Source: Filobasidium wieringae
Lineage: Eukaryota > Basidiomycota > Tremellomycetes > Filobasidiales > Filobasidiaceae
Assembly (NCBI GenBank): GCA_001600055.1
Contig: BCIV01000015.1
Span: 548,448 to 612,447 of the forward strand
Direction of reading: 5' to 3'
DNA: 64,000 nucleotides
The notes under the pieces were generated by a model, which made no database searches, was not told the origin of the DNA, and worked only from the letters and a program-made list of their open reading frames with translations. The translations under genes and the position numbers were made by a program. Positions within the stretch are counted from its first letter, which is position 1; each line of letters starts with the position of its first letter. Positions 304 through 18,421 of this stretch are shown here, in pieces.

Positions 304-707
304 CCTGATGGTGTATTTGTTAATATGTACTGGTGGTATACGATATGAGCTGGAAACAGCTAGTGAGTCTAAGTGCAAAGCAAGAGAAGTAGGAGAAGAT
401 ATCGTTCGAGCGGATGACGAGACAGGTCCACTTCACCCGAAATCGCGCTTTAATTTCGCCTTATCAGTGCCGGCTCTCAGATCACCGATAACAGGCAATC
501 ACATTGGACGGTGGGAAAGCAGGGCATAGCAGTGAAGCTGAAGAACCTAAACACAGGGGTACGAGCCAATGGTATATGAAAAGTCTAGACGAGGTAGAGA
601 TAAAGGATACAGTGTGGTGGAATCTAAATCTAGGACAAAAGTCGGCCATCAAAGAATCGCCAAACCGAGGCCAGGCTGGTTGTTCTCTGGAAGAACGCCA
701 GGCAAGC
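304..707. other. Upstream region of ARO7, no gene seen
   Basis: These 400 bases separate the ARO7 start from the 3' end of the next minus-strand gene. Short open frames occur on both strands, but none has a conserved motif or a convincing exon structure. Confidence 0.5.
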
Positions 708-1279
708 TCATAAGGCGAGCTCCTTCTCCAGCTCAGCCCAGACCTGTTTGTTGTCCGCTAAAAGCTCGACGTTCTCTTGCACCCCTGTCTGAATGGCATT
801 CTCGATAGCCTCTCTAACTCCACCAGACAGGATCTTGCTCGAGTTCTGGGAAGTAGCGTTCGTTGTGTTACTAAGTGATGAGAGGATGGGGGAGTGTGGG
901 TGAGGCATGTTTGGCATAGTCGCAGAATTCAAAGGAGAAGAGGTGGGAAGGTTGGGTGGCTTGATTAGGTCGAGGTGTTGAGAGAGATTTGTCCGTGCTA
1001 AGATGGTACATGTATATAAGCCTTTCGTTCGGCGCTCGAATACCTGGAGATTCGAAGATGCCTACCTCCAGTCAAACCCTCCTCGACGATCCCGCCAACA
1101 CCTCTAACGCCCATTCCTTCCACTCTAGCGATAACCATCGGACTCTCCTTGACAACCATTTCCTTGACTCCGATTGATCCGCCTGAAGTAGCGGCAGAGG
1201 AAATACATTCCGAGGTGGTCTGGATGATAAGGTTGGATTCCTCCTTGATGACCGTACGGAGGGTGTTAAGGGCAGCCAT
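708..1279 (-). CDS. Small uncharacterised protein, 167 aa, two exons
   Basis: Exon 1 is 1279-1066 and exon 2 is 997-708. The 68-nt intron (GTAGGC...CTTAG) is phase 1 and joins EEGLTG to ARTNLSQHLDLIKPPNLP in one frame. The product begins MAALNTLRTVIKEESN. It has an N-terminal half rich in small and aliphatic residues, a Pro/Ser/Asn-rich middle (about residues 80-120), and an amphipathic C-terminal helix (GGVREAIENAIQTGVQENVE) ending in VWAELEKELAL. There is no signal peptide or membrane segment. I do not recognise the family. It lies in the same orientation as ARO7 and marks the left edge of the accessory cluster. Confidence 0.62.
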
Positions 1280-1722
1280 TGTTGTATAGATTCAATAGAG
1301 GAAAGAGGGGAATTGATGGATTTAAACGCGATTTGCTTGCGGTTTCTTCGCAGAGAGAAGTGAAGATGATTTGGCGTTGAAGGACTAGGACTAGGACGAG
1401 GTACGAATGGAGATTGGTTGATGGAGGGCGATAGGCAATTTAAGAAAGGAAATGGGAGGAGCCATGAGAAATAACAAGAGGGCTCCAAGATTTCGCCTCC
1501 AGGGATTTCCTATTTGACGTCATAACCTGTACTGCGGGAACGCTGCTGATAAGAAAAGGCGACGCGCATGTAACAGTTGCGGCCGGCGTTTCAGGTAGCA
1601 GTTACAGTAACGAAGGCCTTTGAGGAAAAAAACTTCAAATCGTGTCTACAGCCAAGCATGTTTGAGAGCGAGTGATCAACTTTCAATGCCTGTCGTATTA
1701 CGATGCTCTCGCTAGGTCGCAG

Positions 1723-2269
1723 ATGTCAAGTTCGTCGGATCATCGTCTATCTTACCGCCGAGATGAAAAATGGCACGACAAACGGCAGCAAAGCCATCCT
1801 GACACAGCGCAAAGTGAACCGATTGCGGGTGTTCGACGTCCATACCTGAAGCCAGATATCTTGAGCATACACGCGGAGGAGGGGGTCATAGGAGAACGAG
1901 TGCCTCGTCCAGTATACGCATCGCTTGATCCACATCCGTTTACTTCGTGACGGGATCTACCGGGCTGCGTTGTAAACTTTATGTTGTGAAACCAGACGAT
2001 GAGATGATTTACGATAGGAGACCTCATAGATGGTTTGTAGAGTGTGAAAATGAGTCCTCCAGAAGGAAGAATCAAGATTTCCAAGGGACGATGAACTATT
2101 CTATGTTATCAAGTGTATCGTTCATGAATCGAATAACGGCCTCTCATACACTTGCGCACGATCTGATTTCCACAGCTTCATTATCTCTGGGAGAGCAATT
2201 CGGTACTCGTCGGAGCGCTACGTACGCCTCCTTCGTGTCATTCAAGAGAATCCCTCAGCGAAATATTGA
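1723..2269 (+). pseudogene. Possible decayed GYW-family copy
   Basis: A segment reading CKLYVVKPDDEMIYD continues in one frame through a 44-nt candidate intron (GTGTGA...CCAAG) to DDELFYVIKCIVHES and stops at 2269. This resembles the G-x-Y-x-V opening and helix of the neighbouring family. The upstream frame (MSSSSDHRLSYRRDEKWHDK) cannot be joined to it in phase with any splice pair I could find. It is either a broken copy or a gene whose first exon I have not located. Confidence 0.25.
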
Positions 2270-2501
2270 ACGGAACCCGTTCTACAAGTGAAGGATAAGA
2301 AAAATCAGCTTCCGCTCTTCCATGTCGCTTGTGAAGAATCTTCGATTTGATCGGTATCGAGCCAAGCTTGAAGCTTGAAGGGTCAACAGACTTTGCCAGA
2401 GACAGAGAGAGTTTGCATCACGATCCGAACGAAGAAGCCGATGAAAGGAAGTAAAGTAGAAGTCAACTGACTAGGATGGGAAATCCAGCTTTCGCAACGC
2501 C

Positions 2502-2508
2502 TATATAT
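2502..2508 (+). promoter_or_regulatory. TATA box of the 2596 g​ene
   Basis: CTATATATG lies 94 nt before the chosen ATG, a spacing like that of the other family genes. Its presence argues against using the upstream in-frame ATG at 2476, which would put the TATA box inside the coding sequence. Confidence 0.5.
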
Positions 2509-2595
2509 GCATCTGTTTATGGGATATATGACAGAGATAAAAGTCGTGCGCCGATAGACTCTGGTTTAAATCATCCATCAATTGCCTTCCTGATC

Positions 2596-3112
2596 ATGTC
2601 AAACGGACCTACGGTTGAGGCAAAGTTTGATGAGATCCTGCAACGGTCCGGTAATAGTAAACGACCTGACTATGTAGGTCATACCCACACCAAGAGCTAG
2701 TCCCATTCTCACCTCACATGCACAGGTGCCAGGTTTTTATATGCTCAATTTCAACCCGGATGAACCACCGATCGCTATCCTCCTACTCGATTCGGACAAA
2801 AAAATGGGGCGTCTTCGTCACCCAGAAGGGTTCAAAAAGCTAGTTCAAGATACACTTCCGCTAATCAGCCTTCATAAGAGAATTGTCTTACATCATCTGA
2901 AAAGGTGCTATATGATTTCTATAACTCAGAAGGATGCTTATGGTATGGCATTCCAATTGGAAGAAGTCCTTCATGATAGCAATGAAAACCCGGACAGAGG
3001 TTCGAGCCAAATCAGCGCAGATTTGCCTAGTACGGATAGCAGTCTTCCGATTCGGAGCGATACCGGCTCGACAGACAAATCATTTTTCCTCTCACGCATG
3101 ACCGGATTGTAG
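2596..3112 (+). CDS. GYW-family protein, 154 aa, two exons
   Basis: Member of the small-protein family described at 11889-12563. Exon 1 (2596-2673) encodes a short leader ending KRPDY. A 52-nt phase-0 intron follows, and exon 2 (2726-3112) opens with VPGFYMLNFNPDEPP, the G-x-Y motif. The core continues with a helix (PEGFKKLVQDTLPLI), a CYMISI strand and an AFQLEEV strand. The tail from about residue 125 is rich in Ser, Asp and Thr. There is no signal peptide or membrane segment. An ATG at 2476 would extend the protein by 40 residues but overlaps the TATA box. Function unknown. Confidence 0.6.
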
Positions 3113-3390
3113 GATTAACGCACATGGTCCACATTGTATAACCAGGAATCGTATCCTCAGCTAAATGCGTCTTTTCAACTGTTATCATTGCAGCACGAGG
3201 CGCGAACGCCATAGTTGCATCCGGTGTTTCAGCGTACAAACACGTTCATAAGCCTAGATCACCTGACATGCGTGGCTATCGCATCATGAAATATCACAAG
3301 AAGCAAACGTTAAAGGAGGCGTCAATGACTGTGAGATCCGACAGGTGAACAGAGTGAAAGGAAGTAGTACGGTATATACGTTTTTCAATA

Positions 3391-3811
3391 GTGCTGGTGG
3401 ATGTTAGCTATCTCGAACGAACCATACTACGTAGAAATTGTAGAAAGTTGGCATTACTCAGTAATCGAATTATGCTCTGTTACGTGTGCCTTTCGTCAAT
3501 CGATAATACCCCAGTATTGCGGGGAGCCATACATACAGGGTGTGCCTCATCGATCTACAAAGTCTACCCCATGTCAATCGACAGCGAATATTGTTCAGAT
3601 GAAGGCTGCTAGCCGTTGTAGCTGTCAGAACTGCGAGATGTCCGATGCTTATCGTAACGCAACATCTTCTGACGCGACCAATTTGAGAATCAAGATGAAT
3701 TTCTTCGGCTGTACTACTTATCCTGCATCGAATATCCTTTTCGTCAGCTGCCGACTTATCAAAGGAGAGAGTGATGGTAGAATCGAGTCAGGTGTCCAAG
3801 TAGCATTCTAG
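3391..3811 (+). pseudogene. Decayed GYW-family copy
   Basis: A TATA box at 3373-3378 (GGTATATACG) is followed by two overlapping open frames that each carry part of a family-like protein. The first ends ASSIYKVYPMSIDSEYCSDE and stops at 3612. The second, in another frame, supplies a C-terminal half (ATNLRIKMNFFGCTTYPASN) and stops at 3811. No single splice joins them with both parts in frame. A frameshifted copy is the simplest reading. Confidence 0.3.
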
Positions 3812-3843
3812 CATGAGAACCTATCAGTCCGAACGACTATAAA

Positions 3844-3849
3844 TATATA
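3844..3849 (+). promoter_or_regulatory. TATA box of the 3940 gene
   Basis: AAATATATAGC, 96 nt before the ATG. Confidence 0.5.
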
Positions 3850-3939
3850 GCTTGTCCCTGCCGTTTGGTTATGTTATGCCAGTGTTTGTCTAACAAGACA
3901 ACCCGCTCCGCACTTAAGAGAGATATCTTAGCAATCCAC

Positions 3940-4479
3940 ATGTCTACCAACCTCCACCATCGATTGGGGAAAGAATGGGCAGTAGTCCTCGAGCTTTTGA
4001 CGTCTGGACATGGATTTGTAAGCTTGTTTTTTCTACTTAATGGTGGCTGCATACATGGACGGGTTCGAGCTCACTAAAACCGTTAGACGACTGGAAAATA
4101 CGAATTCTTCACTTCGAACGGGATCGTTTCGAAAGTCTTTATCGGAGAGGAGGAAGTGGAGCGAGGAAAGGTTAGGGTCATCAAACCCGGAACCGTAATT
4201 AACTTGATCTCGAGACCGGACGTCTCTCGAATCCCGACTACGGTTTCAAGGACCCACACCTTCGAGATGACAGATATACGCACTGAGTATACCGACGAGT
4301 TTACTAAGCTGACGTTCCAGCTCACAGAAGTCGGAAAACGTGCGAGCCCCGAGGTTAGACGATACTCTCGTTCCGATTCTCTCAATACAGATTCGCTCTC
4401 CAAGGAAGGGGGTTCCAGTATGAGTATTGAGCTGAGTGGCGCTGGTGGATCAGAGATCTCTACAACTCTCTCGGACTAG
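3940..4479 (+). CDS. GYW-family protein, 156 aa, two exons
   Basis: Exon 1 (3940-4017) encodes MSTNLHHRLGKEWAVVLELL and ends in HGF. The 69-nt phase-0 intron runs GTAAGC...CGTTAG. Exon 2 (4087-4479) opens TTGKYEFFTSNGIVSKVFIG, very close in pattern to ETGKYTLSNSDCTFKVRIV of the 11889 gene. A central strand THTFEMTDI and a LTFQLTEVGKR strand follow, then a Ser-rich tail (RSDSLNTDSLSKEGGSS and on to the stop). The phase-0 junction next to the TGKY motif is what fixes the model. No signal peptide. Function unknown. Confidence 0.7.
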
Positions 4480-4898
4480 ATAGCGTTATCAAGAGCTGAG
4501 CTGCCTCCGAGCATCAGCTGACATCCGCCTGCAATGAAACGATTATTTGACTCGATTATACCTCCAAATCATCCGATACATCAGTCATTTGCTGAACAAA
4601 AGTTATGCTTCGCCTATCACACGTGTAAAACGATGGGTTCGGTGACACTGGCGCGTTCTCGCGCGAATCGTACATGAATGGAAGCCTGATCCTGCGTATT
4701 CGCTTCATTGCGTATATCGTCTTTGTTGCATTCCTTTGCACTTGATTAAGATCACAAAGGGCTTGAATATCTACCTATAAATCGGTACATAAGATCTGGA
4801 GCGGACGACGGCTACAGGACCAATGAACCAGAATGAAATGCACTTTACGACAACTAGCTTACCGACGAATCATCTTGAACAATCTCGCTTCATTTCGA

Positions 4899-5489
4899 AT
4901 GTCTAGATCCTATGAAAACTTCGCTGAATTCCTACAAGAGCGAGTAAACAAATCTTAACAGGTATGCACGGTTCGGGATGAGATAGCTCAGCATACGTTG
5001 ATGATTCCATCGTAGCTTCGCGGATGTTACACAGCGATACTCGACAATCACAACTCTTCTAAAGGTGTCATTCAAGGTCATAATCATCCGAAGTACCGCG
5101 AAGGTTGTAAGCCCCAAACCTTCAAGATTGAAATATCCCGACAGAGCGAATCGGCGGAGACGTGGGAGATGATAAAGACTATGAAGGAAATAATTACACG
5201 GAAGGAGGCAGTCTATATCTCAGAGGCGTATTGGATTTCGGCTATGAAGGAAACAGCCACGAAGGAAAACTCTGAAAGCATTGCTCATTTCAAGGTGGGG
5301 AAACGCGGATATAAACGCTCTGTACGCTGTCCCCTCAAGAAAATGGCCGTCGATGACTTGGTACCAGATTCGACTCTCGACTCCAAACAGTCCACTGGCG
5401 CTAGCGGCACGTGTCTATCGGAAGTAGAAACTAAGGAGTCAATGGCAGACTACGATTCAGGTCATGCTAGTAGCTCCGCAATTCATTAA
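4899..5489 (+). CDS. GYW-family protein, 172 aa, two exons
   Basis: A TATA-like TATAAAT at 4776-4782 precedes a 15-codon exon 1 (4899-4943, MSRSYENFAEFLQER). A 72-nt phase-0 intron follows. Exon 2 (5016-5489) opens LRGCYTAILDNHNSSKG. The core shows TFKIEIS, the amphipathic helix ETWEMIKTMKEIITRKE, a YWISAM strand and IAHFKVGKRG. The tail is Ser/Asp-rich and ends SGHASSSAIH. This member has the shortest first exon of the cluster. The next family gene's TATA box lies under 200 nt beyond its stop. Confidence 0.62.
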
Positions 5490-5724
5490 AGTGTATAGTG
5501 GCGCGTTAGGCATGACTCAAGTTCGAGAGAACCGACTAGACATGTCCCATACACCAATAGTCACTGGAGTTGCAATCATCGTTCATAAGATATCTGCTTT
5601 CTCTTCAAGCTCGTTTGATCCTCTCGCAAAGGCATGTATCCGCGTGTCAGTCCGTCGTTACTTATTTTATATAGCGGATACGACCGGGGATTCAGACTCT
5701 TCTGGGAGATCCGCGATCCCATTC

Positions 5725-6103
5725 ATGCTAAGTGAGGTACACCCTCTTCGGTGGAAAAGAACAACGGCTCTTGCTCTCATAGTTTGGACAGTACGTGTGA
5801 CTTCTTGATCTGCAATTCTGTAGTCTGTATCTGTAGACTCTTCAAATTGTCAAGTTGCGGCCGTATGCGATAAGAAAGGGCAGGGAGGACGCGAGGCGGG
5901 TTTATCGGCTTGATTTTTCGGTTATTGGTGAGACATCCTTTCTATATTTCGGGCGACTCCACTCCAATGCGAGAACATATGTCTCTCAGAGCTCGCAGCC
6001 ACTGGGCATCGATATGACGAGTTCGCGGTCCTTTATATTGCACTTCTCAACTGACAAGCTTCTTGTCTCAACAACGAGGCGATTACAGCCAGCAAAAATA
6101 TGA
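5725..6103 (+). CDS. Short GYW-family member without Ser-rich tail, 110 aa
   Basis: A TATA box at 5668-5673 lies 57 nt before the ATG. Exon 1 (5725-5790, MLSEVHPLRWKRTTALALIV) joins exon 2 (5837-6103) through a 46-nt phase-0 intron. Exon 2 begins TLQIVKLRPYAIRKGREDAR, so the usual glycine of the G-x-Y motif is missing. It keeps two later strands (YRLDFSV, SFILHFSTDKLLVSTT) but stops before any acidic Ser-rich tail. It could be a truncated copy that is still open or an early stage of decay. Confidence 0.48.
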
Positions 6104-6211
6104 TATATGTAGCAGCCCATCGACAAACCCATCCGAACCGCTGAGGATCCTTGAAAACTGGATCATAAACTGCTCCTTCCATAACTCTACTCCATCTGGT
6201 AACCGAAGAAG

Positions 6212-6864
6212 ATGCATATCAGACAATCAATCAAGAAGATACTTTCCTCCAATGGCAAATCTTGGCAGGGTCCTCTCACTGACCTCTTTGAGGCTCATCC
6301 CGCCGAGGACGGCAAAGGCACTGTATGTAATGATTAGAGCGCTATCGACCTATACCTGACCGAATGAACGGTATCTCATACCAGCCTGAAGGAATGTACC
6401 AATTCTGGAACACGCATAAAACGGGTGCGCCGCTTCGAATCGACTTCATTCCCCGTCATAGCAGCCCAAAGGCGTACACCGTTTACCTAGAGGATCTCAA
6501 AACTGAATTGATAGAATCTATCGTAGATGCAAGCGAACATAATTCTAATGACCATATCATCGAGATCAAGGGGATAAAATATTCAACGACAGGTTATTTG
6601 AAAGAGAATCATGGCACCGTATTCTTTCTCTATAAGGTAGGGCAGGAGTGGGAGGCAGATGCACGATATAAACATGGGGAGAAGAAGTGGGAGTTTTCAC
6701 GTAAAAACGGACAATGGACTGACGGAGCCAGTCACCCGGAACCGACCGAGAAGAGCGATTCTGCCACTCTCTCCAGTTGTCGTACAACGGATACTACAAC
6801 TGCCGGAACGCAAACCGGTAGTGTAGTTAGTGATGGATGCCCTTCCAATCTTAGTTTCGTTTGA
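6212..6864 (+). CDS. GYW-family protein, 196 aa, two exons
   Basis: Exon 1 (6212-6322) encodes MHIRQSIKKILSSNGKSWQG and ends DGKGT; an in-frame stop just upstream fixes the start. After a 62-nt phase-0 intron, exon 2 (6385-6864) opens PEGMYQFWNTHKTGAPLRID. Then come AYTVYLEDLKTELIESIVDA (strand plus helix), a GIKYSTTG strand and HGTVFFLYKVGQEWE. The tail (about residues 150-196) is rich in Ser, Thr and Asp. The nearest TATA-like element (6034-6038) is 178 nt upstream, farther than in its neighbours, so a 5'UTR intron is possible. Confidence 0.68.
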
Positions 6865-7797
6865 GACTAGCTCGGAGGACTTAGGAGGGGTGCTCCGGGA
6901 AGGTGTTTACTCGCGAGAACGAAGATCATCAAGCAGTTCTCAAAACCATCACATAAATGAGATTTTGCATCGTGCGAGATAATCCCAATCATCTTACAGT
7001 AAACGTCGTTTAGTCGTATTTCTTGCACCTACCATTTTAAGATCACGTAGATTTGTGTTTCAAGACTTGCGAAGGGCTTGCGATCTCCAACAGTCGTTTG
7101 AGACGATGAGTTTAGCCCTCTCCCCCGTCTTCCCTATAAGCGGACGAGCTGCAGCCTAGTCAAGACGTGGTAAGGCATCAATCACGTTATTGATCGTAGC
7201 CGTATGAGAATACAGCTGGCGTTCCTTCAGGTAGTCTGAAGATGGATGAGCCGATTCTACCTATCATAAGCATGTTCCTGACTTGACGGTTGTCTACCTT
7301 TAACTAGTGAACGGCTCAATCGTCTGGAGACTTTAGATTACCGTACTCGTTATGCAATAAAGTTTGTGTGTAACGCGCGGCGTCTGTAGTCTCATTCGTT
7401 CATAGTAGTAGTCAACACGGCCGTGTCGAGTCCATCTACTCTGGTTTGTCGTCGCTTGCGCTATCTTGGTGATTTGAGTCATGCCGACGTTAAATAGCAC
7501 AATATATCCTCCTAGAGCGTCTCCGTTGGGAAGGACAGGGGGTCAAATCATTCGACCCTTCTATCACCTCTACCAGCTTATCGCTAACAATGCACCCGTC
7601 AGCCGCTATGGAGGCGTGAGATAACTCCTTGGTATCCCTTTGTACTCGTGTCTAGACTCAAGCGGGCCTTTGGGTCATGATTCCCTTTCAGGAAGCTATA
7701 CCTATCAGGAATATGGTATAAAGCAAGAGGGAATAGTGAGTCAGGGGGTTTCTGAACAAGGTCTATCAATTACCGCCGATCATAAGCAATACCTATC
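6865..7797 (+). other. Gap without coding sequence, ends in a family-type promoter
   Basis: No open frame of useful length occurs on either strand over about 900 bases, unlike the rest of the cluster. I see no repeat or RNA gene. Its last 120 bases hold the promoter of the next gene: TTCCCTTTCA at 7681-7690 and TATAAAG at 7717-7723. Confidence 0.5.
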
Positions 7798-8415
7798 ATG
7801 AGCGAATCTCAAGGTGACCTAGAGTACCGTAAGCGTTACTTGGTCGAGCTGGTAATCGAGCACAAGCCTAGCAACTCCGTGAGTCTGATCAGTAGGGGGC
7901 GATACTAGTACTGAACAGACGCCCGCAAATCGCTTCTGCAGGAATCCAACAAATTTTGGGTCTTATTAAAGTCCGACGGGGGGAAATACATCGTACTCAA
8001 TTCGGATCTTCAGGGACAACTATGGTACGACCAGGATCCCGAACGACCGTTTCAAGACGCGGACAGAAACTTTATCATACAGGAACTGGAACATCAGGGG
8101 AATTATCAGCAGAAAACTCTAGACATCTTTCCATTGCAGCAGCAGGAAGCCACTAATGTTTCATTCGGTGAGAAGGCCAAGGAAGTATGCAAGAAACTTT
8201 TGGATCGCTCTTCGCATACGGCCATTGCTTCTATGGAAGCTGTCTTGTGCTTCCATTGGTTTGACCCTGGGGATAATGAGGCGACCGCGTCTCAAGCAAT
8301 TGAAAGGGGCTCATACACCTCTGGCTCATCGGGCTCTTTGGGCAGGGAGGACAAATCAGAAGGTTCCGACACCATCTCTGTCGGATCTTTCGGTACAGGA
8401 ACAGCTTCGTTCTAG
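7798..8415 (+). CDS. GYW-family protein, 184 aa, two exons
   Basis: The TATAAAG at 7717-7723 is 81 nt before the ATG. Exon 1 (7798-7878) encodes MSESQGDLEYRKRYLVELVI and on to PSNS. A canonical 63-nt phase-0 intron (GTGAGT...CTGCAG) leads to exon 2 (7942-8415). This opens ESNKFWVLLKSDGGKYIVLN, with the GKY motif slightly later than in its relatives. A helix (FGEKAKEVCKKLLDRS) and a strand (AVLCFHWFDPGDN) follow. The tail (ERGSYTSGSSGSLGREDKSE onward) is Ser/Gly/Asp-rich to the end. No signal peptide. Confidence 0.7.
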
Positions 8416-8842
8416 CAGTGTTACCTACAGAGAGACAGACGGATGACATTCGACATAACTCGGCACTTCGCTTGGTATGACTATGGAATGACGTGGCAGA
8501 TCGTACAGTATCATCGCGAGAAGCCATGTACGAGAATGAGGCCGTAGCCAAGGCTATCTTTGTGAAAGTAAAATTTGGCGGCCAAAAATTATGATATTGA
8601 ATTCGTTTCAGGCGGTAGCACCGTGTCCTCTTGACGATGAATACAAGGTCTAGTGTTCGGATCGTAATTTACGCCCTTTTTACTTGCCATGGAAGTGCCT
8701 TTACTTGCTTTTGGAGCGCACAATGGGTACGCTCATGTAATGCATGTTTATGGTCGATTTCTCAGTAGCCTCTGTCTTGAACGCGGTGACGTTGAACGAT
8801 ATCTCGCTTTGACGAGCATTGTCCATAGTCTGATACAAACGC

Positions 8843-9073
8843 TTGATACAACATCCTTTTGATCATTCTACGAAAGGACCCATGATGCCGCGTCCTGCCA
8901 TCTTTTTGAGGACACCTCCACTCAACGTCTTGAAGCACGAAGGTGTGTATGCCATAATTTTCTTGGAACATGAAATTCGACGAAGGGAATTACGTCGAGA
9001 TCAGAAGAAGCCCCTTCTCACTTCCACGCCTCCAGATGACCTTAAATTGATCGGCCGCTCCACTTACCTCTGA
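8843..9073 (+). pseudogene. Truncated GYW-family remnant
   Basis: The frame reads KHEGVYAIIFLEHEIRRREL, matching the opening of exon 2 in the 6212 gene (PEGMYQFWNTHKTGAPLRID) in spacing and type. It ends at a TGA at 9071-9073 directly after DDLKLIGRSTYL. The second half of the domain and the Ser-rich tail are missing, and no TATA box or first exon is evident. Probably a 5' fragment of a lost copy. Confidence 0.35.
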
Positions 9074-9216
9074 TAGACCGCAGAACCCAATGGATACGTT
9101 GGCGCAGGAGGAAGGGCTCATAGCCTATGGCCGCAGGTTAGATGTATTACAGGTCACAGGGGGGGATCTTCTGAGTGTTTCCCTCGGATTGAAGACAATG
9201 AAAAGGGGACGGCGTT

Positions 9217-9310
9217 TGATGAAACCTATAATTAGCATCCGCATTTAGTCGCGCTGCGGATCGAGGCATGTTCCCTTTGTCCTGTGAGATCGCTCTGTGT
9301 ACATAAAGCG
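9217..9310 (+). repeat. Promoter segment duplicated at 11737-11820
   Basis: Both segments run GATGAAAC..CCTA..ATTAGC.TCCG..., then TTCCCTTTGT, then (T)ACATAAAGC in the same order with scattered differences. Each stands just upstream of one of two paralogous family genes, so gene and promoter were duplicated together. Confidence 0.6.
9271..9307 (+). promoter_or_regulatory. TTCCCTTTGT plus TATA-like promoter of the 9368 gene
   Basis: TTCCCTTTGT at 9271-9280 is followed by ACATAAA at 9301-9307, 67 nt before the ATG at 9368. The exact decamer recurs at 11781-11790 and 13322-13331, each time shortly before a TATA element. Confidence 0.5.
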
Positions 9311-9367
9311 TACAAGCCAAAAGATGGTCCAATATTGTCGAATGCGCCAGTCAGGAAACGGACAACG

Positions 9368-10003
9368 ATGAACAATATGAAACGTCGGTTCCAACCGACA
9401 AACAAGGCATTGCAAATTATAAGAAAAGGATCCGATGAAGCTACCGTCGCTGCATTTACCGCTTTTATAGAAGGTCTGTTTGAAAGCCCTGCGACAATCG
9501 TAAGCATGAGTCATACTTCGACTCTCTTCGTCTCTCATACCAGGCTTCTCAGCGAGAACACATATCGCTTGCTAGTGAACAGGTCAGTAGAAATCACTTC
9601 ACCAGGCGCGACAACTGAGACACGTACGGAGCCGGATTGTGGGACCGCGTTCCAGAAATTTCTTGTGGACAGCTTCAATCGAATATTGGCGGACAAGATC
9701 CACAAAGGTTTTGAGACCGAACTCCAACTGTCAGATGGCAAGGTATGGATCGTCGGCCCCGCGGAATATGAAATCACTTTTTATGCTACGCCGTTTAAAT
9801 TCGACTTGCGGCGAAAAGGTTCGGAAAGATTGTCAGAAAGAAGGCCAATTAAAGAAATTGCGTCGGTGGATCGCACTCTGACTAGCGATTCCTTGGGCAC
9901 TTCCTCTCCGAGATCTTCTATGAACTCTTCTAGGATCAGCCTGTTGTCAAGTAATGATGCAGACACAGGAAGATTGTTATCCGACAGTAGTTCGATCAAC
10001 TGA
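9368..10003 (+). CDS. GYW-family protein, 211 aa, apparently with an exonised intron
   Basis: Tandem paralogue of the 11889 gene. Shared signatures are GKVWIVGPAEYEITFYATPF here versus GHTWIVSNAQYIYPQPYPFE there, and KFDLRRKGSERLS versus FELRRRGTLKLS. The product begins MNNMKRRFQPTNKALQIIRK. A 44-nt stretch at 9500-9543 looks like an intron (GTAAGC...CCAG) at the position where the other members have theirs. It contains no stop, and removing it shifts the frame into an early stop, so it is modelled as retained coding sequence. The family motif follows as LLSENTYRLLVNRSVEI. The C-terminus from about residue 165 is Ser/Asp-rich. The start was chosen over 9284 because of the TATA element at 9301. 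Confidence 0.62.
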   Translation: MNNMKRRFQPTNKALQIIRKGSDEATVAAFTAFIEGLFESPATIVSMSHTSTLFVSHTRLLSENTYRLLVNRSVEITSPGATTETRTEPDCGTAFQKFLVDSFNRILADKIHKGFETELQLSDGKVWIVGPAEYEITFYATPFKFDLRRKGSERLSERRPIKEIASVDRTLTSDSLGTSSPRSSMNSSRISLLSSNDADTGRLLSDSSSIN

Positions 10004-10592
10004 AGTAGTCATGACTGAACATGATATAAATTCACTGTCTGACATCAGGACTACCTAGACGAAAGTGACAGGGTGCATGAGAGGTATGGTTCAACGGACT
10101 GAGAACTTACTTGATCGTTATAGATGGCTGGTGATCCTCGATTAGGAGGTTCCAGATTTGCCAATTGCTATATGCAAGGACCAGTCATAGCTATCTGTTC
10201 CTAAACGACCGCATATCATAGCCGTAAGTCCGAAAGATCAGAAGAGCCTTACCTGGTGGCATTTAGAAGATCTAACCTCCGTCCAGAACTGCTTTGCCTA
10301 CGCTTGTGTGGGCTTTCCATTCTTGTTTGAGTGCCACAACGCATGTAATCCAGGCAAGAAACGAAATAAGAACGCGGCTACCCTAATATGATTATCTTGC
10401 TGTCACTCGCACATGATTGCGAGTAGGTGGTTTCACGCGGACACCTCGATCATTCAGGAAACTCACATCGACATTAGGTCGAACAAAATCAGAATGTTCA
10501 AGGACACAGAACGCCCCCAAAACGTTCGAAGGTCATGATCTAGGAGTACCGAACAAGATCAGACCCTGGGAAGCCCTCTGATCACGAGTATT
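10004..10592. other. Gap, no gene seen
   Basis: About 590 bases after the 9368 gene with only short chance frames and no recognisable element. Confidence 0.45.
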
Positions 10593-11264
10593 TCACGTTT
10601 TGACGCGGATTCTTGGGAATGCGTAATAGAGATTCTTTATGCGCTTGACCACGCATAAGGTTAGGTATAGGATTGCGAGACTCTTTGTTTTTAAGAAGCT
10701 GTTTCGTTTGTACCTAATAACAAGACAGAAAGATCTGGAACTTTTCTCAATTGCAATGCGGTCAACATCGAGATTAGTAGCAAGATGAACCTCGAACACG
10801 ATTGCATCATAAATGATCAGGCAATGAATAGATACTTCGAGATTGTCAACCCGACTTGTTTTGGGTATCATTGACACGGAAGTTCCTCATTCCTCTTCGT
10901 CGTTGTGCTACTAGAATTGAACCCTTGGCTTGCAAATTTACGATATATTGCTTGTCTATAACATCACTCCCGAAAGTGGAATGAATATTGATCACGTCCG
11001 AAAAATTCTAGAAATCAAAGGACAGATTACGATTCATATGGCCGGTGTGCAGCATTTACAGAGTAGGATAGCCAATAAATCAAGGATACCGTTAGCAATC
11101 ATAGGGAAAACATCGATTAGATCGAATTCGATATGAATGGGGACCAAGGTAAAGCCATAATGTCCGCTTCGGAAATGCCGCCCAGGAGTACGATGAAGCG
11201 AACACAATTCACGACTCGCCGCTCGATAGGGAGTCTCGTGAGACTGTTTGTTTTTTCGTTCCAA
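10593..11264 (-). pseudogene. Possible reverse-oriented GYW-family remnant
   Basis: On the minus strand, near 11200-11100, a frame reads FRSGHYGFTLVPIHIEFDLI, like the G-x-Y opening of exon 2. Farther along (about 10760-10690) another frame reads RIAIEKSSRSFCLVIRYKRN, like a later core strand. They are in different, interrupted frames and I found no splice model linking them. A decayed copy in the opposite orientation would explain both, but chance similarity cannot be excluded. Confidence 0.22.
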
Positions 11265-11736
11265 ATACGTTCACCGCAATCAAGGGTAATTCATATGGTC
11301 GATGAATAGCCTGGGGGAACTTATAGCATCTTCTTACTCTTCGAGTGCACAGGGCCATCAGCGCCTTGTTGAACTTCCTTTAGATCCACTGTCGTTGTGA
11401 TCGCCCATTTTTGGATGCCAGTCACTACATACAGTACAGAAAATCCGAAAGCTGCAGATGAGCCCGTACCATATTCTAAGATCGTTTGATTATCAGGATA
11501 AGTTTCCATGTCTCGCTGAGCAGTGCAGCATTGCAATTCGACGGGGAACACGGACCGTCATCATGTCACTGAAGACATAGCTTTCCTGGGACACCACTAG
11601 GTGTGTTCCCGAGTGCACGTACATACTGAACGAACTCAAGACGTATTAAGCTAAGCGGAAAGAGTCCTCCCTCCGTCGTAAGCTGATTTTGTACTGTGCC
11701 AGGAGCGTCAAACGCGCTAAGGGCGATGACGCATCG

Positions 11737-11820
11737 GATGAAACACCTAATTAGCTTCCGACCTTCTCCTCATCAGGTGCTTCCCTTTGTTCTTTACCAT
11801 CGGTTCGCATACATAAAGCT
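11737..11820 (+). repeat. Second copy of the duplicated promoter segment
   Basis: Counterpart of 9217-9310, including TTCCCTTTGT at 11781-11790 and ACATAAAG at 11811-11818, 78 nt before the ATG of the 11889 gene. A GCGATGACG element sits just upstream at 11723-11731; the same nonamer occurs at 16048-16056 before another family gene. Confidence 0.6.
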
Positions 11821-11888
11821 GACGGTCTCTCACCACCTTTGGTCCAATAGCTAAGAATCCAACTTATTTGTCCAATGCCTGGAACAAC

Positions 11889-12563
11889 ATGTCCAATCAA
11901 CAAGCAGGACTTTCAAGATCGACCCGGAAGCATTTCGGAGGCTGGAGACGGTCCCAGAGCAAGGCACCAAAGTTATCGGCCGATCCTCAACGTGCAGCTT
12001 ACGAAGGATTGATCAACAGTCTTGCTAGTCTTAACTCCGGTGAACCTGTATGTTGTTCGGTAGTATACACCGTCATCGTTCCGTTGACCAACGTCCATGG
12101 ATCGTAGGAAACGGGCAAATATACATTGTCTAACTCCGATTGCACTTTCAAGGTCAGAATCGTTAATGAAGAGGAAAAGGAGAATGTTCATGATAATCCA
12201 TGTACGAGGAAGTTTTGCGAGTTCCTTGAGAAAAGGTTCAGAAACAACGAATTTCGACTTACTCTACGCGAGGGAGACAAAGAAGGACAGGAGTTGGAGA
12301 TTGACCTTCTAGATGGGCATACCTGGATCGTCTCGAACGCGCAGTACATATACCCTCAGCCATACCCTTTCGAATTTGAGTTGAGGCGGAGAGGGACATT
12401 AAAACTCTCGAATAGAGACATATCGATCATTGCGCAGGATGACACTCAGTATACCGAATCTATCGGGACCAGGAATTCAACACTTACTAGCTTTGATCAA
12501 GAGAGCTCGGCTAGATCTTCATCCGAGACAAGACATTCAGCCTTCGAATCGCCACAAAGCTAA
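11889..12563 (+). CDS. GYW-family protein, 204 aa, two exons (best example of the family)
   Basis: Family plan, read from this gene: exon 1 (11889-12047, 53 codons) is a variable hydrophilic leader (MSNQQAGLSRSTRKHFGGWR onward). A 60-nt phase-0 intron (GTATGT...CGTAG) follows. Exon 2 (12108-12563) opens ETGKYTLSNSDCTFKVRIVN, a likely beta-hairpin around G-x-Y-x-(V/L). A helix (KFCEFLEKRFRNNEFRL), the strand GHTWIVSNAQY and the strand FEFELRRRGTLKL come next. Then a low-complexity acidic Ser/Thr tail runs to the stop (RSSSETRHSAFESPQS). No signal peptide, membrane span or catalytic motif is visible. I do not recognise a known domain; the fold description is inference from residue patterning. 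Confidence 0.74.
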
Positions 12564-12652
12564 AATGAAATCCGTATCTAGACATACTGCTGTTGTTTAT
12601 GTAACTCAGTTAGGGGAATGTCTCATTGACATCAGAATTCCATATCTCCCGG

Positions 12653-13003
12653 ATGCCATATACAATGATTGATCGCTTCGCCCAATTGATAATTCTGCCG
12701 GATAGATGGTTTGATTCTAGGTTGACATCCAATCACAAGCTTTGGCTACCCCTATTGAAGTTTTCGGGCATGTACAGACTGGATAAGGCGATCCAAGATG
12801 TTCATGACAAGTCATTACAACAATTCCACCACGAAAGCAGAGACACGTTCGAATTCGGCTGCCATGGCCCACACCAAAAAGGTCTAGAGTGGTATATCAG
12901 GCTCTGTCCGCACATCTTGGGAGGTCAACGCAGCGATGGCTTTGCTGAGCATCCCCAATCGCGATACAGAACCGAGATCGATGAATCGATTTTGATGCGA
13001 TGA
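12653..13003 (+). CDS. Possible 5'-truncated GYW-family gene, 116 aa
   Basis: Starts less than 100 nt after the stop of the previous gene, with no TATA box of its own. The frame carries KLWLPLLKFSGMYRLDKAIQ and then RDTFEFGCHGPHQKGLEWYI, which resemble the central helix and the later strands of relatives such as 16193-16782. The opening hairpin, the intron and the usual Ser-rich tail are missing. It could be a truncated copy, or be reached by an exon I cannot identify. Confidence 0.38.
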   Translation: MPYTMIDRFAQLIILPDRWFDSRLTSNHKLWLPLLKFSGMYRLDKAIQDVHDKSLQQFHHESRDTFEFGCHGPHQKGLEWYIRLCPHILGGQRSDGFAEHPQSRYRTEIDESILMR

Positions 13004-13321
13004 CAGTCTAACACGTGCGTTTAACCTGTTTTACCCCTTCTTGTTTCAACTGGAGTTTATCTTCCTTTGCACAGGAGTCCCCTATGACGTATATAGAAAG
13101 AAAATCGTACGCGAATCCTGGCATAATCCGATGGAGAGACATGTATACTTTAGTATCGCAGGCTCAGCTGGATTGTGCTAAAATCGTTCAGTTATCGTAT
13201 TGTGTTGACTTGCTATGACCGAATCGACCAATTTCGTAGTATGTCAGTTGTCAACCGCGAATACGTATGTCCAAGAGCGAAAAGGAGGCGCGTCGTCATG
13301 ACGTTATCTGAGAATCCAGTC

Positions 13322-13378
13322 TTCCCTTTGTTGCTGATGAGGTCACAGGCCCTTTGACCTTTCAGGTCGACATATATA
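13322..13378 (+). promoter_or_regulatory. Family-type promoter upstream of a broken copy
   Basis: TTCCCTTTGT at 13322-13331 and a TATATA box at 13373-13378. The ATG at 13469 lies 96 nt from the TATA box, the usual family spacing. Confidence 0.45.
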
Positions 13379-13468
13379 AGCTTTCACTGATGGCTTACAA
13401 GCAAGATCGAGAAGCAGAAGACCTTACCCTCGAAGACTCCTTTTCATCTAGTTACACCTTCGTGCAAG

Positions 13469-13894
13469 ATGTCATCTGTCAAATTGAGCCAGGAAGCGTT
13501 GATGAGGGAATGATCAGGTATTGTGACTCCTGGTGGTCACTACCATATTGTCAGTACATCTCTATCTGATCACTCGATATTACTAATTAGGTTTCAAAGA
13601 TCGCCGGCCGCTATTATCTAATTTCGAGGTCTGCGAAATCTTGGACCCTCACGTAAGGAAGAGGGAGCAAATGCTTGGTTCAACTACAAGTCTAATGTCA
13701 CTACTGATCCTGAAGCATTTTTCGAAGGGATGCATAGCTGCATGGGTAAAGTCTTCCAGTAATATCCTGAATTGGATCAATATTACTCTGTGTCCTACCC
13801 CGAGAGCGAACCTGGCTTCCTAGCGGTCGACATAACAAGATGCGCGAAACCGAACTACCGGGAGATGGATATGATCCGCAACGGCAGCATCTAA
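13469..13894 (+). pseudogene. Broken GYW-family copy with in-frame stops
   Basis: The exon-2 frame reads WFNYKSNVTTDPEAFFEGMH, then GKVFQ, a TAA at 13760-13762, then YPELDQYYSVSYPESEPGFL and AVDITRCAKPNYREMD to a TAA at 13892-13894. Helix, Y-x-V strand and final strand follow the family order across the internal stop. The ATG at family spacing from the TATA box (13469) reaches a TGA after 14 codons. The Ser-rich tail is absent. An alternative ATG at 13390 lies only 17 nt from the TATA box. Confidence 0.5.
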
Positions 13895-14055
13895 AGTACC
13901 CCAGGGAGCTCATTGATGAGTAGCATGCTCTTCTCTGGTCTCAGCAGTACATATCCGCGAAGTATTTATTCCGCGAGCCGATACTCCTCGTGAGATGGAT
14001 ATGATACCTGGCGTGTATTCTCGTTGAGAACAGACACGTAAACAATCTTCGGTGA

Positions 14056-14427
14056 TACTACAAGTCCAGATTGATAGATATAAGTCCAGATGATGTTGCT
14101 AGTTTCAGCCACGGTTTCCAGGAAGCTTATACGATGTGCGAATCGCTGTTGAATGATGAAAGCTTACGTCCTATTCAGGTCGCGCGCAGACGTGTCCAAG
14201 GTACCAATGGTAATAGTATGTGGTTCCAGGTCAGGAAAGGTGGAACCGGTGAGACCGTACACGAAGAGGATTTAAATTGTACGATGTCCATCATCACAAG
14301 CCATATGAGCACCGATTCCACCACAAACGGGGCATCTGGCATCAGCTCGAGGAGCACATCTATCTCCTCCGCTTTGAGACAGATCAAACGAAGCTTGACC
14401 GGTGATAGCCCGTCATCTGTACGTTGA
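14056..14427 (+). pseudogene. 3' half of a GYW-family gene
   Basis: Directly after a stop, the frame reads YYKSRLIDISPDDVASFSHG, a helix (FQEAYTMCESLLNDESLRP), then GNSMWFQVRKGG, which closely parallels SLWFEIRKV of the 15032 gene. A long Ser/Thr tail ends SSALRQIKRSLTGDSPSSVR. The first exon and the G-x-Y hairpin are missing and no TATA box is seen in the preceding 150 bases. Either a truncated copy or the last exon of a gene rearranged with the broken copy before it. Confidence 0.45.
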
Positions 14428-14943
14428 AGTATCTCCATTGGGTATGCATGTATATCTAGAAGTGATCAAGTAGAAATCTCTCTTACCATATAAGGATTTC
14501 TATTCGGTTAGGAACTCTTGAGCAGGATAAACAATCAATTCAGCTTGAAGTGCGGCGCAGGCCAATCCATCACCCTATATCACTTATCATCGCATCTCCT
14601 ATGAGAATGACGCTCCAGCTCCAATCCGGTGCCTCCTTTGTCGCGAGGTTGATATGCAAGCATAGTCCGCGATGACCTATACCGTGACACCGAATGGTCA
14701 ATTCGATTATCAATGCGCCTGGCTGATCTGATTGTATCTTTGCTGTATATCTCATGTCTAGATTCAAGGTCGCGAGCAAGCGACTAGGCGACTAGGCTGA
14801 TGATGGCTAGTGATGATAGCTGACACTTGCGTTGATGATGCAGAGTTGACGTCTCAACGTTTTACCCCTATCTTCAGAACCCCTCTTCCTTTGACCTCTC
14901 AGGCAGCCGATCAGGGAAAAGTCCGCCTTGCTTTTGTATAGTC
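14428..14943. other. Intergenic stretch, no gene seen
   Basis: Only chance frames. Just before the next promoter lies TTCCTTTGACCTCTCAGG (14886-14903), similar to CCCTTTGACCTTTCAGG at 13350-13366. Confidence 0.4.
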
Positions 14944-14950
14944 TATATAA
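14944..14950 (+). promoter_or_regulatory. TATA box of the 15032 gene
   Basis: TATATAAG, 88 nt before the ATG. Confidence 0.55.
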
Positions 14951-15031
14951 GGACTGGTAGACGTTTACAGGCTTCTCAGGTCAACGATTGACCCTAACTT
15001 TACTGTGATTTCCCTCAAAATCGGTTCTCAA

Positions 15032-15605
15032 ATGCCACTGGAATCAAGCTTGGAATCGAAGTGTTGCGATGTGCGATTGGCGATGGCCATCCTGAGATCC
15101 ACAATCCTGTCATTCAACAAGATAAACCACCCTGAAAGAGTATGTTTGTCAAGTTATAACAGGTGCCCGTTATTAACATGATTTCTGCTAGAGCTTCGAG
15201 GGCCTCTATTGCATGACGTATCCATCGGCCGAGGACTGGTCTCTGGATATTGGCGAAGGAGGTGTGCAGCGGAAGCTGTGCCCGAGCGATTTCAATAAGG
15301 TCGATCGCCATGATTTCTCTGAACTTATCGTGCGAGTTAAGACAATGGATTTCGACCTTCCCTCTCTTGAGGGACGGCATCGTATTGAAGTTGTGCCCCG
15401 TCCGGAAAGCAAATCTCTATGGTTCGAGATCAGGAAAGTCCTGACGCCTGTAGAGATGAGCAAATCGCTGGGAATCAACAGCTCGGAGTTCCAAGCGTCC
15501 TCGCTCGTGACCGATGATGCGAGCCAGAATTGGAATTTCGGATCAGAATACGATAATGATGTCCATAGTTCGATTATGATTTCCAACGGCACCATGATGG
15601 AGTAA
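15032..15605 (+). CDS. GYW-family protein, 173 aa, two exons
   Basis: Exon 1 (15032-15139) encodes MPLESSLESKCCDVRLAMAI and on to NHPER. The 52-nt phase-0 intron is GTATGT...GCTAG. Exon 2 (15192-15605) opens SFEGLYCMTYPSAEDWSLDI, with the motif as G-L-Y. The core continues with a helix containing FSELIVRV, then RHRIEVV and SLWFEIRKV. The tail (about residues 125-173) is rich in Ser, Asp and Asn but shorter than in its relatives. No signal peptide. Function unknown. Confidence 0.73.
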
Positions 15606-16089
15606 TCCATACGCATGTCATTAATGCCTTGCAAAGCTACAAATATTGTCATCGCTTGATCGACAGATCAAAGGGACCGATGTCAGACAAATGATCCAAC
15701 ATATACATGTTATCTTCCCTTGCCGAGATCGCTACACATTCTTGCACTGCCGCCAGTCCCGTATACATCCCATCCTTCAGACATCTGAAGCGCGAGTCGA
15801 CTAGTCGAAACGTCGCTACACCTTCTATCTTTCGAGTCGCCGTCGAATTCGATCAGAATGCATTCACCTGGACGGTTACGATTTGCAGTATAGCGTGATT
15901 ACCTGATCCGACGAGACCCTATCGTCCATAAATAAAATCCCAACGATAATCCCTTCACCGGCCAGAACACACACCCGCGTGCACAGCGAAGATGACGCCA
16001 TCACAACCCCTGTTTGAAGAACCGCCCTTCCTTTAATCCGCGAAGGGGCGATGACGAGGTTTCGGCTGGGTTGCTTCTTATTCTAGGTT
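15606..16089 (+). other. Intergenic region with the promoter of the next gene
   Basis: A short open frame at 15707-15898 (ending SIFRVAVEFDQNAFTWTVTI) could be a fragment of a family core but is unsupported. Toward the end are CTTCCTTTAA near 16027 and GCGATGACG at 16048-16056. Confidence 0.35.
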
Positions 16090-16095
16090 TATAAA
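16090..16095 (+). promoter_or_regulatory. TATA box of the 16193 gene
   Basis: GTTTATAAAGG, 103 nt before the ATG. Confidence 0.55.
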
Positions 16096-16192
16096 GGTCA
16101 GGGAGATCAGGCTTGGTCGAGAGGGTGGGGGAGGTCGGGGTTTATCATTCCTCTTCATACACCTCTTTACATATTTGATCTTATTTAGTCGT

Positions 16193-16782
16193 ATGTCCGA
16201 CGCCGACGTTACGAATCAAGATGTGGCACTTCGAGACGTCTTCAAGCGTATAGAAGCGGAAGATGCTGAAGAAATTGGAACACTCATTGATGATGTATGT
16301 TTCTTCCTCAGGAGATCACGGCTAGACAGGTCCTGATAGGCGAATGGAAGGTTCCAAGCTATTACTTTGCCGGCAATTATAAGTTCGAGTATAAACCTGC
16401 ATACCATGATCGGTGCGATAATTTATATCAGATCGAGACTGACGGCTCGAAGTTAAAAATGCACGATACCATGCAGTGGAATCACTTGATCGAGGAGATG
16501 CGCATAGTCTTGATGAAGGCCATCCCTCAGGGCGCTTTTGAATTTGATTCTAAGAGAGGATACAAATTTCACCTAGAATACCAAAAGCTCAAGGAGGATC
16601 ACGGAGTTGTAGCATGGGACATGACGATTCTCGCTGCGAATGTGAAGGAAGAGGGGGAACTGGCTGCTGACATGCAAAGTATTACACTAAGTGCGGGCTC
16701 GGAACAAGATTGCTCGAGCGGTTCGGGGACGACGGGCGCAGGGACCTATAGTAGTCATGGCAATAGTAACAATACGTACTAA
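16193..16782 (+). CDS. GYW-family protein, 184 aa, with a 35-nt intron
   Basis: Exon 1 (16193-16294) encodes MSDADVTNQDVALRDVFKRI and ends TLIDD, an acidic leader. The intron that keeps frame and motif is only 35 nt (16295-16329, GTATGT...AGACAG). Exon 2 (16330-16782) opens VLIGEWKVPSYYFAGNYKFE, with Trp in place of Tyr. It continues LYQIETDGSKLKM, the helix HLIEEMRIVLMKAI, GYKFHLEYQKL and VVAWDMTILAANV. The tail is Ser/Gly/Asn-rich and ends SSHGNSNNTY. The longest and clearest core of the cluster. Confidence 0.74.
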
Positions 16783-17123
16783 GCGGTACACTACTGCCAT
16801 GGAACGCGAGCTTTACATTTGTAACCTCCCGATGAAACATCCGTCGATATACTCGTATTAGCATCCGGCCCATTCCCCATTCCCTTCCGGCTGCTAGGCT
16901 GACGTGTTGCTGATCTCTGTTCGCCTATTTCCACCTCTCGATTCTTTGCATCGATGATTACGTGTTCATGTACAACGACATTCCACTTCTGCGGCTGCTC
17001 ATTCGATCTGCTCGATTGGCTTCGACTCTTTCTTCTTCCACTTGCACGTTGACCTCGACCTCGACCTTGCCTCTCAGATCACTTAGATAGAACAGATCTA
17101 CTACGTACGATATAGATCTGTCT

Positions 17124-18421
17124 ATGATGACTACCGCCACAGCCGATCTCACTCCAGAACCATCCTCCACCTCGTTCTCCGTCCTCAAGGACAGGATCAA
17201 GGCGCACTACGATATCTGTTCCAGTTATTATCTGTCCTTATGGTGAGTCCGTCTTCCTCCCCTGTACCATGGCCGCACCTTTCGTGGACACAAATCACAT
17301 CTTGTTTGCAACTCGCGATCGATGGGGACTGATCGATCCACCGTCCGTCATGTTCATGTTATAGGGGTCAACATATCCATCACGGTTACTGGACCTCCGA
17401 GACGGACACCATCCCTAAAGACCTAGCTCAAATCCACCTAATCGAGCTTCTCTTGAACCGAGCCGGTCACCCTTGTTCCCCCTCCGTGGCAGGGAAACTC
17501 CAACTCCCTTCCTCCCTCCGGATCGATGCCGAAACTGAGACCCCGGGTGAAAAGAACCTCAAAGTCTTGGACGTGGGGTGCGGGGTGGGGGGTACTACCC
17601 GGTACTTGGCGGAGAAGAGGGGGTGGGATGTGATAGGAGTGACCATCTCTTCCGAACAGATCAAGATCGCATATGATCTGACTAACCAATCCATCCCCCC
17701 CTCCACCCCCGGGAAGGACCTCGATGAGAAACTGGAACCGACCCACCTGACGCTGAGTTCCGGGACGAGGGTCAGGTATGGGAAAGGATCCGTCACTTTC
17801 ATTCAATTGGACGCCGAATTGATCTCCCCCCACTTCGACCCCGACTCCTTCGACCTCGTTTGGATCTCCGAAGCGCTCTCCCACCTCCCCGATAAACCGC
17901 TCTTCTTTCGTAACGCTTCTCAACTACTGAAACCTCGGGGTCGAGTGGTCATTGCCGACTGGCTAAAAGCGCCTAATCTGAAGGCGCAGGAGTTTGAGGA
18001 GGATATCAAACCGATCGAGGAGGGGATGCTTTTACCCCCCCTCGGGACCATGGATGATTATTTAGGCTGGGCGGAGCAGGCTGGATTGAGGGTTAGGAAG
18101 GGTGGGGAAGGGATGGATATTGGGGATCAAGTGAAGAGGACTTGGTACGTCTCTCCCCCCCCCCCCCCCGCCCTGTTTTTCAGCCCATCATCATCGTCCC
18201 ATCCCATCCCATCCCAACTCCCTAACATGTACTAACCCTCAAATCCTTGGTCTGACAGGGACATATCCCTCAACCTGATCCAATCACCGTCCCTATGGGC
18301 CTTCGCCCTGTCCCAGGGAAGAGACGTCATCGCCTTCCTCAAGGCGTTCACCGCGATGAGGAGGGGGTTCGGGAATGGGAGGTTCAGGTATGGGGTGGTC
18401 GTTTTCGAGAAGAAAGAGTAG
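17124..18421 (+). CDS. SAM-dependent methyltransferase, tocopherol/sterol C-methyltransferase type, 353 aa
   Basis: Three exons (17124-17242, 17365-18144, 18259-18421) with phases that close exactly. The N-terminus has the small-molecule methyltransferase signature HYDICSSYYLSLWGQHIHHG followed by YW. Motif I is LKVLDVGCGVGGTTRYLAEK (about residue 100), with WDVIGVTIS after it. Later come the acidic post-I and motif II regions (FDLVWISEALSHLPD) and RVVIADWLKAP. This is the pattern of class I methyltransferases related to gamma-tocopherol and sterol C-methyltransferases. The substrate cannot be told from sequence and fungi do not make tocopherol. The second intron starts with a long C run. The next gene on this strand, GDH2, begins 2 kb downstream. 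Confidence 0.85.

Follow-up and report, generated by a model that had tools for sequence, protein, structure and literature searches.

Here, we describe an array of ten small genes, all on the + strand, near the left end of a 64,000-nucleotide stretch of the Filobasidium wieringae genome. This whole stretch, hereafter the window, is C15:548448-612447, in a genome of 19.76 Mb in 33 contigs. From their sequence, we find that the ten copies very probably constitute one tandem gene family. The family is almost invisible to sequence search: kinship lies in the exon junction, the promoter, and the order of the genes, and the proteins are near 20–25% identical. Our favored reading, which we hold to be somewhat better than an even bet, is that the array arose by local duplication and encodes inducible intracellular binding or adaptor proteins that might be partly under the control of a high-mobility-group (HMG)-box factor. 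An earlier note on this DNA had counted nine loci. The array stands, and the count is corrected to ten, copy 3 (4833-5489) having been absent from that list. Further fungal “orphans” may belong to hidden families of this kind.

The array is set apart by its gene plan. We scanned for an ATG, an open first exon of 60–199 nucleotides (nt), a phase-0 donor (one of 13 listed hexamers), an intron of 42–79 nt, and a second exon no shorter than 90 codons, with the whole protein limited to 260 residues. Because we chose the scan settings, donor list, and TATA pattern with the copies already in view, it is the controls that carry the argument. In the array (1300-16900; 15.6 kb), the scan returned eight models (copies 1, 2, 4–7, 9, and 10), each of them on the + strand and preceded by a TATA-like box. 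By comparison, control DNA of this genome (199 kb) yielded 18 models, one with a TATA-like box, and the 47 kb to the right of the array (16900-64000) yielded four, none of them with such a box. When the TATA-like box was demanded in the scan itself, eight models were found in the array, one in 181 kb of control DNA, and none to the right of the array. Each stop codon in the array is reached by a single intron model, except for stop 15602, which has two possible acceptors. A TATA-like box lies 30–150 nt upstream of all ten copies, against frequencies of 0.21 in random 120-nt stretches of the array and 0.07–0.11 elsewhere. Nine copies (all but the broken copy 8) agree in their number of exons and in the phase and position of the intron. 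The promoter type, exon count, and phase-0 intron that the earlier note had described as common to the loci are thus borne out against controls.

The same note had proposed that second exons open with G-x-(Y/W)-x-(V/I/F), and this holds in part. G-x-[YWF] is present at residue 3–4 in five of the eight scan-found genes; the other three second exons open with ESNKFW, NTYRLL, and VPSYYF. Among controls, the opening was found in 0 of 1 model when the TATA-like box was required (181 kb), in 1 of 18 without that requirement, and in 0 of 4 from the rest of the window. A branch-like YTRAY lies 9–45 nt upstream of the acceptor in five of the eight introns (none in copies 1 and 2 or in the gene at 7798), against 0.22 for random 36-nt stretches. 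A pyrimidine run is missing at the acceptors of the genes at 9368 and 16193.

The exon junction also carries a protein signal. Over the 12 residues that open exon 2, the mean BLOSUM62 score between copies is -0.05, against -0.96 (standard deviation 0.17) for random anchors, and none of 5000 random anchorings reaches it. This test used six of the eight scan-found genes, with copies 6 and 10 left out. In a version with eight copies (3 and 10 in, 6 out), 0 of 3000 random anchorings reach the score. The case for common descent of the copies is built on this junction and not on ordinary similarity. Together with the scan, this junction-anchored similarity agrees with the earlier view of one family sharing one gene plan. 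An unsupervised motif search of nine cores (copy 6 out; 100 restarts for the real set and 40 for shuffles) placed a last-strand motif in seven of nine, inside a 24-residue band (e.g., LTFQLTEVGK, LWFEIRKVLT, and FEFELRRRGT), with copies 5 and 10 giving other places. The motif score alone was matched by 79 of 500 shuffles, while score and position together were matched by 3 of 500. Short DNA matches also occur upstream of copies 6 and 7, 8 and 9, and 9 and 10 (E 0.008–0.04 each, uncorrected for 91 region pairs), although by themselves they would not convince.

Several comparisons weigh against a single family. Among the nine intact proteins, BLASTP finds one significant pair, copies 6 and 7 (E = 2.4e-11), with the next at E = 0.88. 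In hhalign, applied to the 66 pairs of twelve cores, only copies 6 and 7 (E = 2e-8) and copies 8 and 9 (E = 5.7e-4, for one comparison) clear the 132 reversed controls. The next true pairs, with scores of 17.2 and 17.1, are scarcely above the best reversed control at 17.0. Leave-one-out profiles, built on a hand-made block alignment of nine copies (without copy 5) plus a minus-strand gene at 24495-25417, fail: between 8 and 794 of 2508 non-member frames beat the left-out member, and the minus-strand gene is not recovered at all. This gene and a second minus-strand gene (42642-43474) were also rows in the hhalign comparison, and neither entered the later tests. Furthermore, the exon-1 side of the junction gives no significant signal (206 of 3000 random anchorings).

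Identity within the array has a median of 23% (36 global alignments). When exon 2 of copies 2, 4, 7, 9, and 10 was searched as protein against the species' own genome, only copy 7 found a second member (copy 6, E = 2e-9). This is as expected by the earlier note, which had suggested that a standard search would likely call each copy an orphan.

By sequence, nine of the ten copies have predicted intact two-exon models and copy 8 alone is broken. Copy 1 comprises exon 1 at 2596-2673, a phase-0 intron at 2674-2725, and exon 2 at 2726-3112 (154 amino acids; TATA-like box near 2502). Copy 2 follows with exons 3940-4017 and 4087-4479 (156 amino acids; TATA-like box near 3838). Copy 3 (exons 4833-4943 and 5016-5489; 194 amino acids; TATA-like box near 4776) has its intron in phase 0 behind the donor GTAAAC, which is outside the donor list of the scan, and its exon 2 opens with LRGCY. 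The idea that this copy is broken was dropped because an intact model exists. Copy 4 (exons 6212-6322 and 6385-6864) encodes 196 amino acids, with a TATA-like box near 6104, and copy 5 (exons 7798-7878 and 7942-8415), the gene whose exon 2 opens with ESNKFW, encodes 184. Copy 6 (exons 9368-9499 and 9557-10003) fits the plan with an acceptor at 9556, not 9543. Its unspliced frame is open too; intron loss was considered for this copy and dropped, since the 57-nt intron fits. Copy 7 (exons 11889-12047 and 12108-12563; 204 amino acids) has copy 6 as its nearest kin by BLASTP. Copy 9 has exons 15032-15139 and 15192-15605 (173 amino acids), with exon 2 opening SFEGLY, and copy 10 has exons 16193-16294 and 16351-16782 (177 amino acids).

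The broken copy 8 (13469-14427) consists of fragments that fall in different reading frames and are interrupted by several stops spread over all three, and its last part is like copy 9. The “broken copies” of the earlier note are therefore reduced to one in ten. The pieces of copy 8, which include a GRYYL start as well as a second YYSVSYP stretch, look as if they came from more than one ancestor, and it is perhaps two fused remnants.

The intact proteins have 154–204 residues. Their tails are rich in serine and threonine, as previously noted: these residues make up 0.24–0.42 of the last 45 positions in nine copies. In a comparison set of 25 further long frames, the mean is 0.15, and two frames exceed 0.3. 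No membrane span was detected by 19-residue hydropathy, the best window scoring at most 1.03 (1.35 for the unspliced frame at 9368), again in agreement with what had been read from the translations. At the N terminus, the 12-residue hydropathy maximum is 1.59 in copy 9 and at most 1.13 in the other eight, so that none begins with a strongly hydrophobic segment, simple hydropathy being the sole signal-peptide measure. Drivers of the wtf type have several membrane spans. The array proteins differ from them in having none.

Structure models add little to this picture. The checks named in the earlier note included structure prediction, and we modeled the exon-2 frames of copy 10 (with its database relative P0001) and copy 7 (with six others) in AlphaFold2. 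Mean predicted local distance difference test (pLDDT) scores were 39.4 for copy 10 (strand, helix, three strands) and 49.6 for copy 7 (strand, helix, strand, helix, three strands), too weak for fold comparison. The low confidence of both models and the different order of their elements weigh against the favored reading. The proposed order of hairpin, helix, strand, and strand has partial support: the last-strand motifs of seven of nine cores lie in one band, but the leave-one-out profiles fail and the two weak models differ. For the copy-10 model, Foldseek ranks PAS/LOV domains first, the likeness being a helix followed by three strands. However, the best E value is 0.03 at a template modeling score of about 0.3 and a pLDDT of 39, and the copy-7 model has no such match (best E = 1.6). 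Because the models are of low confidence, we do not count Foldseek matches as evidence.

The putative family matches nothing named in the libraries searched. Pfam gave nothing above cut-off for ten exon-2 frames (E ≤ 10) or for eight full models (copies 1, 3–7, 9, and 10, with copy 6 unspliced; E ≤ 1). The best E value in NCBIfam was 0.012 for the nine sequences of our profile A2 (copies 1, 2, 4–7, 9, and 10 plus the minus-strand gene 24495-25417), and a sequence search of the PDB with two profiles reached 0.16. Lipocalins start with G-x-W. The array recalls this in a helix followed by G-x-Y-x-L, and residues 48–73 of copy 7 weakly match the lipocalin-like family PF13648; however, the match has 15.3 bits against a cut-off of 22.4 (E = 0.037), and the other seven full models have none. 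Tandem arrays of divergent lineage-specific genes are a known kind of object. A literature search in general terms found no account of a family such as this one, although another name could hide one.

In protein databases, searches with the A2 profile, with copy 10, and with copies 6 and 7 found a sole relative, P0001, encoded on a 71-kb contig of a JGI metagenome. Copies 3 and 8 were left out of these searches, and copies 1, 2, 4, 5, and 9 entered only as rows of A2, which is poorly aligned. P0001 is a relative of copy 10 (E = 2e-47). Their cores are identical at 69 of 93 positions (74%), without gaps, and their tails at 23 of 36, with eight gap columns. Because core identity is this high and gap-free, copy 10 is a constrained gene with a looser tail. 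The description of these genes as “fast-diverging” is not upheld by this sole cross-species pair. The low identity inside the array may instead reflect old divergence.

Coding signals and substitution patterns were also considered. By codon score, in which stops in other frames are penalized, the reading frame is the best of six in eight of the ten second exons; in the exceptions, 6212 and 15032, the top score goes by a small margin to a minus frame. Codon scores are under background in nine of the ten. For the closest pair, copies 6 and 7, the dN/dS comparison that had been proposed gives a divided answer. In the best-conserved 41 codons, the nonsynonymous rate (dN) is 0.55 against a synonymous rate (dS) of 2.8, dS being saturated, whereas 53 tail codons give a dN of 1.36 against a dS of 0.91 in an unsafe alignment. 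Since dN is well under dS in the best-conserved codons, part of the core is likely under purifying selection. We neither claim nor exclude positive selection in the tail.

Part of the array shares a candidate regulatory site. Exact ACAAAGGGA precedes copies 5–8 (four of ten) at -96 to -163 from the ATG, in a single orientation. The four sites are on the minus strand at 7635..7643 (upstream of copy 5, reading TCCCTTTGT on the + strand), 9272..9280 (copy 6), 11782..11790 (copy 7), and 13323..13331 (copy 8). When the 250 nt before each of the ten start codons were screened (4912 serving as the start of copy 3), the commonest 9-mer was TCCCTTTGT, which is complementary to ACAAAGGGA; some 9-mer reaches four members in 10 of 2000 random ten-stretch sets (4 of 2000 on one strand). 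Exact ACAAAGGGA occurs four times in the array, is absent from the remaining 48 kb of the window, and occurs twice in 181 kb of control loci. In addition, three of the 81 genomic sites of the longer 10-mer TTCCCTTTGT fall inside a 4.1-kb span here, all on one strand. In grass smuts, ACAAAGGGA is described as the pheromone response element (PMC3248468). In Cryptococcus, such elements stand upstream of mating genes, those for pheromone and receptor among them, and are bound by the HMG protein Mat2 (PMC3744442), the cited text not spelling out the element sequence.

We regard pheromone-response control of array copies through ACAAAGGGA as a lead, and several observations weigh against it. The site was found post hoc, by k-mer screening against random places rather than promoters. 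Other k-mers are less striking (10-mers in 101 of 2000 and 7-mers in 73 of 300 random sets), and genome-wide TTCCCTTTGT is not enriched, with 81 sites against 110 for the reversed control. Copies 1, 2, 4, 9, and 10 have no ACAAAGGGA site with one mismatch or fewer within 300 nt upstream, and copies 6 and 7 may share theirs by descent. At 79 nt upstream of copy 3 there is a one-mismatch site, and copy 10 has a site with one mismatch or fewer, but 525 nt upstream. The array is like the targets of Prf1 in smuts and Mat2 in Cryptococcus in its exact elements 96–163 nt from the start codon of four copies, but differs in that no pheromone or receptor gene was recognized in the window (one chance frame with a CaaX ending was seen). 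STE3-type receptor loci are on other contigs than C15, at C9:678958-682947 and C5:735036-738509, and linkage of the array to a mating-type receptor was dropped on this ground. The stretches fetched around these loci hold one-mismatch ACAAAGGGA sites only. The STE3-type matches on C9 have no internal stop; the main match on C5 crosses two stops, perhaps introns. If the lead is true, these would be unstudied genes of the sexual cycle, open to a simple expression experiment.

Our favored reading would bring these features together as follows. We regard it as well supported that local duplication enlarged the array and that the copies then diverged until only gene plan, promoter, and short motifs betray their kinship. 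The family seems confined to Filobasidium wieringae and close kin, a narrowness judged from protein-database searches that cover the copies unevenly. Each gene encodes a small soluble protein, with a short first exon that seems helical by eye, an alpha/beta core, and a Ser/Thr-rich tail that is probably disordered. As read from sequence, the first strand of the core (G/N/S-x-Y/F) would lie at or just past the conserved phase-0 intron. We predict that the copies are intracellular binding or adaptor proteins, inducible as a set and driven by TATA promoters, and at least some copies may respond to a Prf1/Mat2-type HMG-box factor via their ACAAAGGGA sites. Each core would have a binding partner of its own, different between copies, and phosphorylation would regulate the tail. 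A bolder proposal is a new intracellular family, limited to some basidiomycete yeasts and mating-induced via the HMG-box element, whose tandem copies diversified to recognize different partners, making up a recognition system on an undescribed small alpha/beta domain; this we consider quite improbable.

Other explanations would assign the same features differently. Leave-one-out profiles and nearly all pairwise comparisons are at noise level, as they would be if the copies were unrelated orphan genes or chance open reading frames (ORFs) grouped by a loose pattern. Such a grouping is hard to square with a gene plan found eight times in 15.6 kb against once in 199 kb, with junction-anchored similarity, or with a constrained relative of copy 10, and we judge it highly improbable. 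An ordinary lineage-specific tandem family induced by stress or nutrients, with weakly constrained and partly redundant copies, is a serious possibility that we would place short of an even chance. It would fit the TATA boxes, the codon scores under background in nine of ten second exons, the AT-richer island in which the array lies, and possibly the old divergence of the copies.

The earlier suggestion of conflict or self/non-self roles would have copies diversify to recognize or escape a changing partner (another strain, a virus, or a driver element), and dead copies would be left behind in the process. The tandem array, the median identity of 23%, the broken copy, and the single database relative all suit this idea, and the excess of dN over dS in the tail of copies 6 and 7 is its sole hint from selection, with the unsafe alignment noted above. 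However, only one copy in ten is broken, the cross-species pair is constrained with an ungapped core, dN is well under the saturated dS in the best codons of copies 6 and 7, and the proteins have no membrane span and no known domain. We therefore think a conflict role unlikely. A pheromone-induced mating set under an HMG-box factor is, in our estimate, also unlikely. It would explain the exact ACAAAGGGA before four copies, rare in the controls, and the three TTCCCTTTGT sites on one strand, and would accord with the role of ACAAAGGGA in grass smuts and the binding of pheromone response elements by Mat2 in Cryptococcus; against it stand the post hoc choice of motif, the five copies without a site within 300 nt, and the receptor loci on other contigs, with one-mismatch sites only in the stretches around them. 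The favored reading, local duplication followed by divergence of inducible binding or adaptor proteins, takes up the HMG-box factor for part of the array.

The array lies in an AT-richer island. Its GC content is 0.45–0.47 (2-kb bins), and to the right of 16 kb it is at least 0.50 in 17 of 24 bins (range 0.46–0.59). On its left flank, at the left end of the window, are two minus-strand ORFs without a Pfam match (998-1291 and 708-1061), and a methyltransferase lies on its right flank, around 17.3–18.1 kb. Rfam and tRNA scans of the window gave no match. A transposon origin was dropped: a repeat search of 1-18000 returned three short imperfect matches, and 3900-5200 has a single place in the genome. 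Fungal traits of the genome include the two STE3-type receptor loci and a gene with a fungal transcription-factor domain.

By eye, four more small genes with Ser/Thr-rich ends are seen on the minus strand of the window (24495-25417, 42642-43474, 41496-41975, and 40205-40791). They resemble the array in style, and their intron phase is different or unclear. Protein search of the species' own genome gave no second place for 24495-25417 or 42642-43474. Both were dropped as family members, the former for having no TATA-like box and the latter for seeming, by eye, to require a phase-1 intron. Because C15 has 632,860 bases, the array is ~68–82 kb from a contig end. On a by-eye reading, C1 and C7 seem to start with a sequence that is also found, in inverse orientation, where C15 ends; it would be a contig-end repeat, subterminal or dispersed.

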